NCBI GenBank assembly: GCA_024637015.1
Contig: JAGXGE010000004.1
Coordinates: 372,001 to 436,000, forward strand
Direction of reading: 5' to 3'
DNA from: Aequorivita sp.
Lineage (GTDB): Bacteria > Bacteroidota > Bacteroidia > Flavobacteriales > Flavobacteriaceae
Length of the DNA stretch: 64,000 nt
In this document: one piece after another, positions 2,534-40,453 of the stretch
Layout: each line of letters opens with the position of its first letter
Position numbering within the stretch: position 1 is the first letter of the stretch
The notes under the pieces: model-generated
The model's database searches: none
Seen by the model: only the letters and a program-made list of their open reading frames with translations
Told to the model about the DNA's origin: nothing
Made by a program: the position numbers and the translations under genes

Positions 2534-3882
2534 TAGGCTTTATCTTCTCCACGTAATGCATTAAATATAGTTTGGAACACTATTTTAATATCTAGAAAAA
2601 GGCTCCAATTTTCAAGATAAAAAATATCGTATTTAACCCTGTTGATAATATGATTGTCATCTTCTACCTCTCCACGATATCCACTTACTTGAGCTAGTCC
2701 AGTAATTCCTGGTTTTATAAAGTGGCGAACCATAAATTTATCTATCCGTTCTGCATACATATGTGTGTGACTAACCATATGTGGTCTTGGCCCAACTACA
2801 GACATATCTCCTTTAAGCACATTAATAAACTGTGGTAGTTCATCAATACTTGTTTTTCGGATTATTCTTCCAACCCTGGTGACGCGTATATCTCCTTTTG
2901 AAATTTGATGAAGATGGGCCATAGGGTTTGGTTTCATAGATCTAAATTTGTAGCAAAAGAACTCTTTATAGTCCAAACCATTTCTTTTTTGTTTAAAGAA
3001 CACTGGGCCTTTTGATTCTAGTTTGATTAGCAATCCAAGTAAAGGTGTGAGCCAAGACAGTAAGCCCACAATAATTACAAGCGAAAGCACTATATCAAAA
3101 CTTCTTTTCAGAAACTTGTTAAATGGTTCGTCCATGGGTATTTTGCGCATAGACAAAATAGGAAGCACGCCATAATATGTAAAATCCAGCTTCTTGCTAT
3201 AAATCTCTTTATTGTCTGGAAGAAATTTTAGAATCTTGAGATTGTTATCCACAAAATCAATAAGTTTTATTAGATCCTTGTTTCCAATTTCGGCCACCGA
3301 AGAATAAACCTCATCTATCTCTTCCTTTATAATATAATCCATACAATCTTCAATAGAAACCTTATTAGTTCCTTTTAGATCAAAGGTTCTGTAAAGTTTG
3401 TAGCCATAAACCGGATTGTTGGTGAAAAACTTACGGAGTTGATCTGTTTTTTGATTAAGTCCAAGAATAACCACTTTACGCACATTCCCTCCTAGGTACA
3501 GCCGGTATTTTTTTAGCAAAAAATAAATACCCAGTTTTACAACTGTAATGCACAACCATACCAAAAGAATGTATTTAAATATTATTGAGGCTGAAGTATT
3601 TAATTCATTATAAAAACCAAAGAAAGAAAAAACAACTAATAAGAAAACCACACCTTGTTTTCCGAGCAAAGAGATAATTTTTGCTAAATGTGTAAAACGA
3701 TATATCTCGTAAAAGCCAGAACGTAATGAAAGCAAGAGCCAAGCAATTGTTAAATATACAACATAGTTGAAATAGGGGAAAGGCTCTCCAAAAAATTCAA
3801 AAGCAAAAAAATGGATAAAGAAAAGATCTATTCCATAAGAAATAGGCCTTAAAAATCCAGAATATCTTCCACTTTTAAACAT
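2530..3882 (-). CDS. Undecaprenyl-phosphate sugar-1-phosphate transferase (WbaP/WcaJ-like initiating enzyme)
   Basis: Predicted to start the repeat unit by moving a sugar-1-phosphate from a nucleotide sugar to undecaprenyl phosphate. The 450-residue protein has about four N-terminal membrane segments (residues 10-125), a nucleotide-binding-like central domain (VVILGLNQKTDQLRKFF near 138), and the C-terminal Bac_transf domain starting at KRSFDIVLS near 265, with KFRSM, TSIDELPQ and GDMSVVGPRP. This is the full polyisoprenyl glycosylphosphotransferase layout, so the transferred sugar is likely glucose, galactose or a related hexose. It is the last gene of the leftward polysaccharide array, 6 bp after the UDP-xylose synthase gene. 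Confidence 0.9.
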   Translation of the reverse strand: MFKSGRYSGFLRPISYGIDLFFIHFFAFEFFGEPFPYFNYVVYLTIAWLLLSLRSGFYEIYRFTHLAKIISLLGKQGVVFLLVVFSFFGFYNELNTSASIIFKYILLVWLCITVVKLGIYFLLKKYRLYLGGNVRKVVILGLNQKTDQLRKFFTNNPVYGYKLYRTFDLKGTNKVSIEDCMDYIIKEEIDEVYSSVAEIGNKDLIKLIDFVDNNLKILKFLPDNKEIYSKKLDFTYYGVLPILSMRKIPMDEPFNKFLKRSFDIVLSLVIIVGLLSWLTPLLGLLIKLESKGPVFFKQKRNGLDYKEFFCYKFRSMKPNPMAHLHQISKGDIRVTRVGRIIRKTSIDELPQFINVLKGDMSVVGPRPHMVSHTHMYAERIDKFMVRHFIKPGITGLAQVSGYRGEVEDDNHIINRVKYDIFYLENWSLFLDIKIVFQTIFNALRGEDKAY

Positions 3883-3888
3883 CTATTT

Positions 3889-4875
3889 TCATCTATTATG
3901 TTTTGAAAAATCTTTGTGTTCACTTTTAAAAAGTTCTTCTTTTGAAAGATTTTTAAAATATTCAAAGGTTTTCCTCATTCCTTCTTCTCTAGATACTTTT
4001 GGTTCCCAGCCCAATATTTCTTTTGCTTTGGAAATATCTGGTTCGCGTTGCATAGGATCGTCTTGCGGCAAAGGTTTGAAAATAATTTTCTGCTCCGTTC
4101 CTGTCAGCTTGATAATTTCCTTCGCAAAATCAAGAATAGTTATTTCTTCAGGATTTCCAATGTTTACCGGTAATGGATAATCGCTCATTAACAGTCGGTA
4201 GAGGCCTTCAACCTCATCATCAACGTAACAAAACGAACGTGTTTGTGATCCATCGCCAAAAACCGTTAAATCTTCTCCCCGCAATGCCTGCCCAATAAAA
4301 GCAGGAATCACTCGTCCATCATTAAGGCGCATCCGTGGACCGTAAGTATTAAAAATACGAGCGATACGTGTTTCAAGTCCGTGGAATCTGTGATAGGCCA
4401 TCGTTATGGATTCTTGAAAGCGCTTTGCCTCATCATAAACCCCACGAGGGCCAATGGTGTTTACATTTCCATAATATTCTTCTGTTTGTGGATGAACCAA
4501 GGGATCTCCATAAACTTCAGAAGTGGATGCTATAAGAATTCGCGCATTTTTTTCTCTTGCCAAACCGAGAAGATTGTGAGTGCCCAATGATCCTACTTTC
4601 AAAGTTTGGATGGGTATTTTTAAATAATCTATGGGGCTAGCAGGCGAAGCGAAATGAAGAATATAATCCACTTTTCCAGGAACATGTACAAACTTTGTTA
4701 TATCATGATGATAGAATTCAAATTGACTCAATTTAAAAAGATGCTTAATGTTCTTTAAATCTCCTGTAATCAGATTATCCATTGCAATAACCTCAAAATC
4801 TTCAGCAATAAATTTATCACAAAGGTGCGAGCCTAAAAATCCAGCTGCACCTGTAATCAATACACGTTTTTTCAT
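3889..4875 (-). CDS. UDP-glucuronate decarboxylase (UDP-xylose synthase), SDR family
   Basis: Extended SDR of 328 residues with the [13 protein letters not shown]-binding motif at the N terminus, an STSEVYGDP segment near residue 115 and the YDEAK active-site tyrosine/lysine near 147. The [10 protein letters not shown] and DGRVIPAFI stretches match UDP-glucuronate decarboxylases, which convert UDP-GlcA to UDP-xylose. The gene directly downstream of ugd, the enzyme that makes UDP-GlcA, supports this reading. Some relatives stop at UDP-4-keto-pentose or act as 4-epimerases, so the exact product is an inference. It lies 82 bp after ugd and 6 bp before the initiating transferase in the same leftward array. 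Confidence 0.85.
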
Positions 4876-37130: not shown

Positions 37131-37976
37131 TTATTTCACTTTTCTAAAGCAATAAATATGTGAAGAGTATTCTTTTGTGCTTTTTGCTTTTAAATTTGAT
37201 AGAAGTCCGATCCAAATCGCTTTTAAAGAAAATTTACTTCCTTTTTTATATTTTTCAGAAAGTAGGCTCACGTAAAAAGAATCAAAAATCATAGGTTCGA
37301 TTTTTTCAAGTTCAAAATTTTCGGAAAAAAGTTTTTGAATAGATTTTTTCGAAAAATGCCAAAGATGTCGAGGTACATCAAAAGCTGCCCAAAATTTTCC
37401 GTAATGTTTCGCATCAAAGCTTTTAAAGTTTGGAACAGCAATAATTAATGTTCCGTTTGGTTTTACCAGTTTTGATAATTTTATAATTGTTTCTTCTAAG
37501 TTTGGAATATGTTCTAAAACATGCCAAAGTGTAATAACATCAAACTGCTTTCCGTCAAAATCATTTAAAGAACATTTTAATTCAATCCCTTTTTCCGAAG
37601 CTAATTTTACGGCATTTTTATTTGGCTCCATTCCTTGAACCTGCCATCCGATTTCTTTTGCAACTTTTAAAAAATCTCCTGTTCCAGCTCCTATATCAAG
37701 CAAAGAACCAATTCCATTATTTTGACTAAAAATTAATTTGGATTTTTTCTGAAATGACCATTTTTTTACTAATTGATATAAGCTCGAAAACAATCCGCGC
37801 TTTTCATCTGTATGTGAAATATAGTCCTGACTTTCGTAATACTTTGGAAGATCCTCGGTCTTTGGTTGGGGGGAAGTTTTCAGAAAATCTAAACCTGAAT
37901 CATAAATCAAATCAAAAGTTTCGCCAGAAACCAAATAATCCTTTACTAATAAATATTTTTTTTCGTGGTTTTGCAA
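37131..37976 (-). CDS. Class I SAM-dependent methyltransferase (TTG start)
   Basis: A 281-residue methyltransferase with SAM motif I LLDIGAGTGDFLKVAKEIG near residue 92, QGMEPNKNAV near 113 (motif II) and FDVITLWHVLEHIPNLEETI near 145 (motif III; the HVLEH is typical of the Methyltransf_23/11 group). The only possible start of family length is TTG at 37976, since a stop closes the frame 18 bp further up and no ATG occurs until residue ~115. Likely lipid, quinone or sugar methylation; substrate unknown. Its upstream spacer holds parS site 1. Confidence 0.8.
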   Translation of the reverse strand: MQNHEKKYLLVKDYLVSGETFDLIYDSGLDFLKTSPQPKTEDLPKYYESQDYISHTDEKRGLFSSLYQLVKKWSFQKKSKLIFSQNNGIGSLLDIGAGTGDFLKVAKEIGWQVQGMEPNKNAVKLASEKGIELKCSLNDFDGKQFDVITLWHVLEHIPNLEETIIKLSKLVKPNGTLIIAVPNFKSFDAKHYGKFWAAFDVPRHLWHFSKKSIQKLFSENFELEKIEPMIFDSFYVSLLSEKYKKGSKFSLKAIWIGLLSNLKAKSTKEYSSHIYCFRKVK

Positions 37977-38033: not shown

Positions 38034-38049
38034 TGTTCCACGTGAAACA
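38034..38049. promoter_or_regulatory. parS site 1 (ParB-binding, candidate)
   Basis: TGTTCCACGTGAAACA matches the consensus TGTTNCACGTGAAACA at all defined positions. It lies in the 79-bp spacer between the mnmG 3' end (stop at 38056-38058) and the methyltransferase start (37976). This sequence is the bacterial centromere motif bound by ParB/Spo0J. Confidence 0.8.
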
Positions 38050-38055
38050 ATGATG

Positions 38056-39927
38056 CTAACGTCCCATATAAACTAAGAGAACCGAAACATCATTTGGAGA
38101 AACCCCGCTTATTCGTGACGCTTGTGAAACCGTAGCGGGTTTAATTTTTGTAAGTTTTTCGCGGGCTTCATAAGACAGTGATTTCAACTTTGAATAATCA
38201 AAAGAGGACGGAATTTTTAAACCTTCTAACCTATTTAATTTATCAGCATTATTTTTTTCCTTGTTGATATATCCCGAGTATTTAACTTGTATTTCCGCTT
38301 GCTCAATCATTTCAGTATCCAAATTATTTTCCTCAATATAGTTTTTCACTGAAGCTATTCCCTTCATGTCTTCCATGGTTACTTCGGGACGAGAAAAGAA
38401 TTTAAACATCTTATCGCTTTGTTCAACTAAAGCAGATTCTCTCGCTTCAAAAATGGGATTGATTTCTTCGGGAACAGCACTTGTTTCTTTAAAAAACTGA
38501 ACAAAAGCTTCTGATTTTTCTTTCTTCTCTTCCATCTTCCGCAGACGTTTTTCACCTGCCAAACCAATCTCAAATGCTTTAGGCGTAAGTCTAAAATCAG
38601 CATTATCTTGGCGCAATAAAGTTCTGTACTCTGCGCGTGAAGTAAACATTCTGTATGGCTCCTCGGTTCCTTTTGTGATAAGGTCGTCTATCAAAACCCC
38701 AATATAAGCCTCATTTCTTTGAAGAATAAAAGATTCTTTTTCTTGAACTTTTAAATGTGCATTTATGCCTGCCATTAATCCTTGCGAGGCAGCTTCTTCA
38801 TAACCTGTAGTTCCATTAATCTGTCCAGCGAAATATAACCCGGAAACCAATTTGGTTTCAAGAGTGTGTTTCAATTGTGTTGGTGGAAAATAATCGTATT
38901 CGATAGCATAACCAGGACGGAAAAACTTTACATTTTCAAATCCTGCAACTTGGCGCAAAGCTTTAAACTGAATATCTTCTGGTAAAGAAGTAGAAAACCC
39001 ATTTATATAATATTCAACAGTGTCCCAACCTTCAGGTTCAACAAAAAGTTGGTGTCTATCTTTATCAGCAAAACGATTAATTTTATCTTCAATTGATGGG
39101 CAATATCTAGGCCCAAGACTTTGGATTGAACCGTTGAACATTGGAGATCTGTCAAAGCCTTCACGCAAAATGTTATGTACCTCCAAGCTTGTGTAGCTCA
39201 TGTGGCAAGAACGTTGATGCTTTAATGGAGCAGTTTGATCAGAATAGGAAAATTTCTCTGGAATTTCATCGCCAGGTTGTTCAATCATTTTGGAAAAATC
39301 TAAAGAACGGCCATCCACTCTAGGTGGGGTTCCGGTTTTCATTCTTCCTGATTCGAACCCTAAATCAAGTAAATCTTGAGTGATTCCAGTTGAAGCTCTT
39401 TCGCCAGCTCGTCCTCCCCCAAATTGTTTTTCCCCAATATGAATTAATCCATTCAAAAAAGTTCCATTAGTAAGAACAACGCTCTTTCCTTTTATTTCTA
39501 AACCAAGCGAAGTTTTAACCCCCTTAATAATACCATTTTTAACAATAATTCCAGAAATCATTTCTTGATAAAAATCAAGATTTGGTGTTTGTTCGAGCAT
39601 TAACCTCCAAGTTTCAGCAAAACGCATTCGGTCACTCTGAACCCTAGGACTCCACATTGCTGGTCCTTTTGATTTATTAAGCATTTTAAACTGAATTGCC
39701 GTCTTGTCGGATACAATCCCACTGTATCCGCCCATTGCATCAATTTCGCGTACAATCTGTCCTTTAGCAATTCCTCCCATAGCAGGATTACAACTCATTT
39801 GTGCAATATTTTGGAGATTCATTGTAACCAACAAGGTTTTTGAACCCATATTGGCAGCCGCAGCGGCAGCTTCAGATCCCGCATGACCAGCACCAACAAC
39901 AATCACATCATACTCGTTTAGAAACAT
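38056..39927 (-). CDS. mnmG: tRNA uridine 5-carboxymethylaminomethyl modification enzyme MnmG
   Basis: FAD-dependent protein of 623 residues that with MnmE modifies U34 of several tRNAs. It shows VVGAGHAGSEAAAAAANMG (FAD motif) at residues 10-28, MSCNPAMGGIAKGQIVREIDA near 43-63, RSCHMSYT near 240 with the catalytic Cys, GYIGVLI-like and PYRMFTSRAEYR near 410 and the C-terminal helical domain with GVSPNDVSVLLVYM. The two parS sites flank it: one 14 bp upstream of its start, the other 7 bp beyond its stop. In many bacteria mnmG is near the replication origin. Confidence 0.97.
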   Translation of the reverse strand: MFLNEYDVIVVGAGHAGSEAAAAAANMGSKTLLVTMNLQNIAQMSCNPAMGGIAKGQIVREIDAMGGYSGIVSDKTAIQFKMLNKSKGPAMWSPRVQSDRMRFAETWRLMLEQTPNLDFYQEMISGIIVKNGIIKGVKTSLGLEIKGKSVVLTNGTFLNGLIHIGEKQFGGGRAGERASTGITQDLLDLGFESGRMKTGTPPRVDGRSLDFSKMIEQPGDEIPEKFSYSDQTAPLKHQRSCHMSYTSLEVHNILREGFDRSPMFNGSIQSLGPRYCPSIEDKINRFADKDRHQLFVEPEGWDTVEYYINGFSTSLPEDIQFKALRQVAGFENVKFFRPGYAIEYDYFPPTQLKHTLETKLVSGLYFAGQINGTTGYEEAASQGLMAGINAHLKVQEKESFILQRNEAYIGVLIDDLITKGTEEPYRMFTSRAEYRTLLRQDNADFRLTPKAFEIGLAGEKRLRKMEEKKEKSEAFVQFFKETSAVPEEINPIFEARESALVEQSDKMFKFFSRPEVTMEDMKGIASVKNYIEENNLDTEMIEQAEIQVKYSGYINKEKNNADKLNRLEGLKIPSSFDYSKLKSLSYEAREKLTKIKPATVSQASRISGVSPNDVSVLLVYMGR

Positions 39928-39940
39928 ATATTATTTTAAT

Positions 39941-39956
39941 TGTTCCACGTGGAACA
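39941..39956. promoter_or_regulatory. parS site 2 (perfect 16-bp palindrome, candidate)
   Basis: TGTTCCACGTGGAACA is the fully palindromic parS variant and matches the parS consensus at 15 of 16 positions or better depending on the lineage. It lies in the 5' leader of mnmG between the -7 element at 39986-39993 and the ATG at 39927, so ParB binding could also affect mnmG expression. Confidence 0.8.
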
Positions 39957-39985: not shown

Positions 39986-39993
39986 CAAAATTA
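39986..39993 (-). promoter_or_regulatory. -7 promoter element of mnmG
   Basis: TAATTTTG on the minus strand, exact TAnnTTTG match, giving a leader of about 50 nt that contains parS site 2. No good -33 element is seen. Confidence 0.4.
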
Positions 39994-40036
39994 CAATATT
40001 ATACTAACATTAAGGCAATTAGCTTTTGGAAAAAAA

Positions 40037-40453
40037 TTACATCTTTGACAACCTCTGAAGAGCATCATCTTCTTTCTTACGCATCAAAATTTCATCGTTC
40101 TTGCCCTTGTCTTTATATCCACAGAAATGGAGAATTCCGTGAATCATAACACGGTGTAATTCATCATCAAAATTTGTCTTGAAATCATTGGCATTCTCTA
40201 AAACGCGTTCAACAGAAATATAAATTTCTCCGTTTATTTGCTTTCCAACTTTATAATCAAAACTAATTATATCGGTTAAGGTATCGTGATTCAAAAATTC
40301 CACGTTCAATTTATGAAGTAATGCATCATCACAAAAAACATAAACAATTTCACCCAGCTCAAATCCTTCTGAAACGATAGAATCAGAAATCCATTTTTTT
40401 AAATAAGCTTCGTTTTTAAGCTCAAAACCTGTTTCAAAATTAAAGTCAATCAT
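40037..40453 (-). CDS. ybeY: Endoribonuclease YbeY (rRNA maturation)
   Basis: Single-strand RNA nuclease of 138 residues, implicated in 16S rRNA 3' end processing and 70S quality control. Motifs HDTLTDIISFDY near 53 and HGILHFCGYKDK at 108-119 contain two of three zinc-binding His. The third His of the usual YDH is absent (YKDK), a feature of Bacteroidota YbeY as I know them. Its start overlaps the end of the DUF4175-like gene by 8 bp. Confidence 0.92.
   Translation of the reverse strand: MIDFNFETGFELKNEAYLKKWISDSIVSEGFELGEIVYVFCDDALLHKLNVEFLNHDTLTDIISFDYKVGKQINGEIYISVERVLENANDFKTNFDDELHRVMIHGILHFCGYKDKGKNDEILMRKKEDDALQRLSKM

Follow-up and report, generated by a model that had tools for sequence, protein, structure and literature searches.

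In many well-studied bacteria the parS sites lie within or next to the parAB genes, and in Bacillus and Pseudomonas an origin cluster is formed by gidA, gidB, parA and parB. parS normally marks the origin region. The chromosomal ParABS systems (Spo0J/Soj and parS) have been reviewed (PMC7333895, available in part).

In two Flavobacteriaceae genomes, oriC was placed at mnmG (gidA) from Ori-Finder and GC skew, according to the available sections of PMC12843772 and PMC11278836. The same sections of PMC11278836 give a dnaA position out of line with the GC skew, and a figure legend there swaps the oriC and ter labels relative to the paper's own text. Since Ori-Finder, as described in the accessible text, relies on indicator genes, the published support for an origin at mnmG may be partly circular. 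The accessible portion of PMC12843772 does not mention parS, its lone text match to 'pars' being 'parsimony'. In contrast, for Melioribacter roseus (Bacteroidetes/Chlorobi group) the excerpted text of PMC3534657 gives an origin that lies between dnaA and dnaN. For twelve gut bacteria, of which two are Bacteroidetes, parS was described as clustering at origins that had been assigned partly from parS, and dnaA as no constant marker of the origin (PMC10197239, partial text). A literature search of openly accessible papers listed no title or abstract opening that reports linkage of parS to mnmG.

The two 16-mers described below are very probably the chromosomal parS (centromere) of this flavobacterium, predicted ParB-loading sites that probably lie near the origin, in an arrangement at mnmG that has presumably been inherited across most of the Bacteroidota sampled.

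The mnmG locus

The window analysed (the whole 64-kb stretch of DNA, G000:C15:372001-436000) carries mnmG with a parS 16-mer close to each of its ends. The relevant features are:

37131–37976, minus strand: SAM-dependent methyltransferase-like gene, downstream neighbour of mnmG (UbiG/MetW-type models, all matches below cut-off)
38034–38049, no strand assigned: parS site TGTTCCACGTGAAACA, exact match, 6 nt past the mnmG stop codon
38056–39927, minus strand: mnmG (gidA), tRNA uridine-5-carboxymethylaminomethyl(34) synthesis enzyme (TIGR00136, 834.9 bits; cut-off 524.85)
39941–39956, no strand assigned: parS site TGTTCCACGTGGAACA, perfect palindrome, exact match, 13 nt before the mnmG ATG (leader)
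39986–39993, minus strand: TAATTTTG, putative -7 box of an mnmG promoter of the Bacteroidetes type, read by hand from the sequence
40016–40018, minus strand: putative -33 TTG element, 22 nt from the -7 box, weak and read by hand
40037–40453, minus strand: ybeY, upstream neighbour of mnmG (TIGR00043, 97.3 bits; cut-off 45)

Both 16-mers had been picked out in a sequence-only reading, and both are exact at the positions given there; the 39941 copy, described as fully palindromic, is indeed so. That reading also held that the sites are outside coding sequence, and no overlap of either site with mnmG, ybeY or the methyltransferase ORF is seen. Its placement of one site in the mnmG leader is correct for the 39941 copy, the 38034 copy being downstream of the gene. 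The promoter-like TAATTTTG begins 37 nt upstream of the 39941 site, so that this parS would fall inside the transcribed mnmG leader.

Within the window the exact parS pattern occurs at these two sites and nowhere else. Allowing up to three mismatches gives 5 matches against 2.74 expected, and it is therefore the exact matches alone that stand out. The draft genome (3,220,656 bases, 39 contigs) likewise has no exact match to TGTTNCACGTGNAACA other than the two flanking mnmG, which are about 1.9 kb apart in 3.22 Mb. One further place has one mismatch and 16 have two, and up to two mismatches the pattern is found 19 times compared with 8 for the pattern read backwards. The genome-wide search thus shows sites clustered at mnmG and not many copies spread evenly over the chromosome. 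The closest named MnmG proteins, among the best 80 of more than 580 relatives, are from Aequorivita species (92 and 90 percent identity), which places the source genome in the Flavobacteriaceae.

Recurrence at mnmG within the family

At least one exact parS site is present in 132 of 149 Flavobacteriaceae genomes, the source genome included, and absent from the other 17, while the reversed-pattern control was found in none of the 149. This bears out the earlier judgement that the two sites are far beyond chance.

For closer comparison, named mnmG loci were taken from the best 80 of more than 580 MnmG relatives, and so represent the closest relatives and no random sample. Sites with no more than one mismatch, and sites whose GTTNCACGTGNAAC core is intact, were counted as parS-like. 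Comparison of mnmG flanks in relatives had been proposed from the sequence, and such a site was found no more than 400 nt from mnmG in 79 of these best 80 loci (both sides in 72, upstream only in 6, downstream only in 1, none in 1). Upstream sites (78/80) have a median distance of 15 nt from the start codon, and downstream sites (73/80) of 8 nt past the stop. Counting exact sites only, 63 of the 80 loci qualify within the same 400 nt (39 on both sides, 20 upstream only, 4 downstream only), leaving 17 with none. The density of sites at these loci is 186 per 63,551 nt of mnmG flank against 23 per 1,526,674 nt elsewhere. Because the sites were picked by motif, the information content within them is inflated, and the informative part is the poor conservation of the bases flanking the 16-mers (mean 0.28–0.42 bits). 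A chance origin of parS at mnmG is ruled out by the reversed-pattern controls in the family and in the phylum sample (below) and by the difference in density between flanks and other sequence.

In nine further family genomes where mnmG was located, an exact site lies within 400 nt of it in eight. The ninth, G023, has three exact parS sites at 997–999 kb and mnmG at 1277 kb, about 280 kb apart; one exception in nine fits the rate already stated, and the odds of the main reading are unchanged by it.

Some named loci depart from the standard sequence or number of sites. In Polaribacter, Tenacibaculum and Kordia or Kordia-like loci (L066, L068, L069, L071, L044, L060), variant palindromes with altered cores (CCTCGTGG, CCATGTGG, CCACATGG) occupy the same places flanking mnmG, possibly reflecting drift of ParB specificity. 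Two Flavobacterium loci, L035 and L032, carry arrays of ten and six parS-like sites (at most one mismatch), respectively, upstream of mnmG.

The neighbouring ybeY was considered as the anchor in place of mnmG. It is near mnmG in many class-level relatives too, as judged by tblastn, and went undetected by tblastn in the short flanks of most of the more distant mnmG loci. As the sites remain at mnmG where no ybeY is found, this candidate was rejected, the short flanks limiting the test.

Recurrence across the phylum

All 118 genomes of the phylum sample have mnmG (117 above the cut-off). The phylum test set comprised 60 genera outside the family, one genome each, for which a full-length mnmG was required. 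Exact parS sites were present in 37 of the 60 (12, 15 and 10 in three batches of 20), and the reversed-pattern control gave 0, 0 and 1 per batch, G220 being the sole positive. By a scripted recount from coordinates, 31 of the 37 have an exact site no further than 400 nt from mnmG. The remaining exact-site genera are G176, with a near-variant at mnmG, G169 and G218, with exact sites 504 nt and 25.5 kb away, and G210, G161 and G253, in which the exact sites are on contigs other than that of mnmG. The 23 genera without exact sites include 20 with a near-variant within 400 nt of mnmG, the other three being G183, G201 and G237.

A parS-like site, exact or near-variant, is thus found within 400 nt of mnmG in 52 of the 60 out-of-family genera, three of which (G150, G181, G149) qualify solely because the 14-base core is intact, both outer bases being changed. 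The eight genera without such a site in this interval are G183, G201, G237, G210, G218, G169, G161 and G253. In the sampled Bacteroidota (in the GTDB sense), parS lies mostly within a few tens to hundreds of bp of mnmG; parB is elsewhere in every single-contig genome examined, and in many, this family included, dnaA is far off.

For one member of the set, G158, the best structure match of the MnmG is 3cp8 (917.7 bits, compared with 614 for the next chain), which we take to be the GidA of Chlorobium tepidum, and on this protein match the genome probably belongs to Chlorobia.

At exact sites distant from mnmG, other neighbours were seen. In three distantly related genomes (G161, G253, G176), murQ (N-acetylmuramic acid 6-phosphate etherase) adjoins such a site or is not more than about 350 nt from it (sites at L278:8234-8295, L279:8642-8657 and L281:8475-8490), and recF is among the neighbours in G218 and G176.

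Position of the sites and mnmG expression

The closeness of the sites to mnmG, with the medians given above for the named loci, might suggest another function, namely that the palindromes are primarily operators through which ParB or another dimeric regulator controls mnmG and its neighbours, and so links the wobble modification of tRNA with segregation or with the cell cycle. The promoter-like TAATTTTG is in keeping with this, as ParB bound at the leader site could block transcription. The box corresponds to TAnnTTTG, presumably the Bacteroidetes-type -7 promoter consensus, which is found within 160 nt upstream of mnmG in 24 of 77 named loci, where shuffled sequence predicts 5.6; in the other 53 it is absent from this interval, which speaks against a general operator arrangement.

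The side occupied by the sites is also variable. Among 30 mnmG loci from the phylum search, sites are downstream only in 19, upstream only in 4, on both sides in 6 and on neither in 1, and such switching between lineages is unlike the behaviour of an operator. Moreover, some sites are not at mnmG boundaries at all; a gidB-like gene contains some, and others have murQ or recF close by. In one phylum family (f21), a second parS occurs about 150 nt beyond the first, 147–160 nt past the mnmG stop in 12 of 14 loci; in L236 of this family it is inside a gidB/rsmG-like gene (3377–4015) directly after mnmG, where it encodes V-S-R-E-T. The predicted product of this gene scores 90.4 bits against the RsmG/GidB model, just under the cut-off of 99.5. 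As the sequence is also that of a standard parS, and the ParB of the genome carries parS-type residues (see below), a primarily operator function is considered very unlikely. A regulatory role of parS at mnmG is possible in view of the promoter-like box upstream of the leader site, but the switching of sides tells against it, and the effect of ParB spreading on mnmG that the sequence-only reading put forward is not supported.

That the 16-mers are instead RNA hairpins, serving the mnmG transcript as a terminator or as a structured leader, is brought to mind by the perfect inverted repeat at 39941 and by the 38034 site just after the stop codon. However, the facing positions 5 and 12 are C-A (no pairing) in 41 and T-G (wobble at best) in 22 of 186 flank sites, and parS sites occur within coding sequence as well. 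A pattern unpaired at these positions, yet fixed in core and arms, is what a DNA-binding dimer demands, and the hairpin explanation is hardly tenable.

Partition proteins of the genome

The preferred reading of the 16-mers, as chromosomal parS, agrees with the proteins encoded. On contig C23 parB sits next to a ParA-like gene, mnmG being on contig C15. The ParA-like ATPase (256 aa), directly before parB, is below the cut-off of every model that it matched (best 125.1 against 400, and 116.3 against 180). The ParB (G000:C23) exceeds the cut-off of the general model TIGR00180 (169.9 bits against 58.45) and can be aligned with known structures of ParB and Spo0J. In its motif, GKNRSTIANYLRLLKL...SMGHGRAL, the positions corresponding to R173 and G201 (numbering of PMC7383237, placed by hand) are R and G; the part of that paper available describes these residues as conserved among ParB proteins, with Q and R in their place in Noc. 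Nine distinct family ParBs that were aligned, G023 not among them, have the same R and G. The original identification of the sites as parS is hence upheld by their fit to the consensus, their recurrence at mnmG, and a genome that encodes a ParA-like protein together with a ParB bearing the R173/G201 residues as given in the accessible text of PMC7383237. Nucleoid occlusion sites of the Noc type are a far-fetched alternative, for while the Noc model TIGR04285 gives this ParB 238.9 bits and the general ParB model 169.9, the former value is under the Noc cut-off of 315 and the latter above its own, the two switch positions are R and G and not Q and R, and the sites are few, clustered and of parS sequence.

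A second ParB-domain protein of this genome (G000:C17:2410-2850), with an open frame of 602 aa, is perhaps from a mobile element.

The conventional arrangement, parS beside parAB, was ruled out. In addition to the separate contigs in the source genome, the fetched mnmG flanks (up to 10 kb) of the 80 named loci, the best 80 of more than 580, have no ParA or ParB match, and all 23 single-contig genomes have parB 300 kb or more away from mnmG, G150 showing the smallest distance (300 kb). In G023 the mnmG-parB distance, taken by hand, is about 590 kb.

Replication origin and dnaA

A position near the chromosome partition centre had been claimed for the locus, and this finds support in relatives, from the skew fit in five of five and from the published oriC at mnmG (available sections of PMC12843772 and PMC11278836), but not by the source contig itself, which lacks a clean flip. 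The five family chromosomes analysed were the single-contig ones among ten genomes, and skew was computed in twenty 20-kb windows per chromosome at fourfold sites, corrected for gene strand. In all five the best-fit origin is 0.007–0.085 L from parS, compared with 0.37–0.47 L from dnaA and 0.26–0.35 L from parB. Two of the fits are strong (0/200 permutations as good), and the other three are not significant alone (permutation values 0.075, 0.12 and 0.245). The windows are denser near parS, and when those within 60 kb of it are omitted the combined p changes from 0.0018 to 0.012, a weaker result that is nonetheless kept; as the five genomes are related, these p-values are optimistic.

The largest origin-parS distance (0.085 L) is that of G023, a weak fit, where the best-fit origin is at 1219 kb, mnmG at 1277 kb and parS at 998 kb. 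The origin is closer here to mnmG than to parS, which may mean that parS moved away and the origin remained at mnmG.

Base skew and gene orientation along the source contig (274 kb) are ambiguous, with no clean skew flip at parS, and DnaA-box patterns do not cluster beside mnmG. The claim of an origin near mnmG in the source draft genome, which we infer, consequently rests on the relatives.

Of the 23 single-contig genomes, 7 have dnaA no more than 30 kb from mnmG, six of them outside the class and the seventh being G150. In eight family genomes the mnmG-dnaA distance is 0.22–0.47 of the genome. In four of the five skew genomes the parS position stood in for that of mnmG, rightly so as locating mnmG confirmed; for G023 the true mnmG position was used, and the distance, calculated by hand, is about 0.40 of the genome.

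Proposed function and origin of the arrangement

As chromosomal parS sites, both 16-mers would be loaded with ParB encoded beside the ParA-like gene on the other contig; ParB would then slide onto the adjoining DNA, across mnmG and its flanks, and with ParA would move the origin region apart after replication. Binding, spreading and a role in segregation in this strain are what we infer from the sites and the encoded proteins. Common descent presumably underlies the parS-mnmG arrangement, the simplest account being that the link goes back to an ancestral origin cluster that included gidA and gidB. Given sites to either side of mnmG or very near it, rearrangement would seldom separate the gene from all of them.

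A wider proposal is that across Bacteroidota, apparently including Chlorobia-like classes, parS sites bracketing or abutting mnmG trap it as the fixed core of the segregation region, about which parAB and dnaA wander, and that ParB at the leader site ties mnmG expression to segregation; in this full form it is regarded as unlikely.

As dnaA can be misleading in this large phylum, parS at mnmG offers a simple, testable marker of the origin region. The arrangement suggests that the centromere has kept its genomic neighbour over very long evolution, with the genes of its own binding protein elsewhere. There are a few natural exceptions, such as G023, in which parS and mnmG have separated, and why parS rarely leaves mnmG is a question directly testable by relocating a site.

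Comparison with known partition systems

The system resembles chromosomal ParABS as reviewed in the available part of PMC7333895, with the same 16-mer, the same ParB specificity residues, parB next to a parA-like gene, and few sites. It differs in the remoteness of parB from mnmG, at least 300 kb in every one of the 23 single-contig genomes. The sites themselves are ordinary parS, and the point of interest is how widely and specifically they accompany mnmG at a distance from parAB, some exceptions apart.

Compared with the gidA-gidB-parA-parB cluster, the locus shares the combination of mnmG (gidA) with parS, and family f21 has in addition a gidB-like gene right after mnmG, with the second parS inside it. 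It is unlike that cluster in that the flanks of the named loci (best 80 of more than 580) give no ParA or ParB match in up to 10 kb, and in that the upstream neighbour of mnmG here is ybeY. There is also a parallel with the Flavobacteriaceae in which the accessible text of PMC12843772 and PMC11278836 puts oriC at mnmG, these being of the same family, with the same gene and with the origin assigned to it. What is new is that parS mostly keeps to mnmG while parAB, and in this family also dnaA, lie elsewhere.
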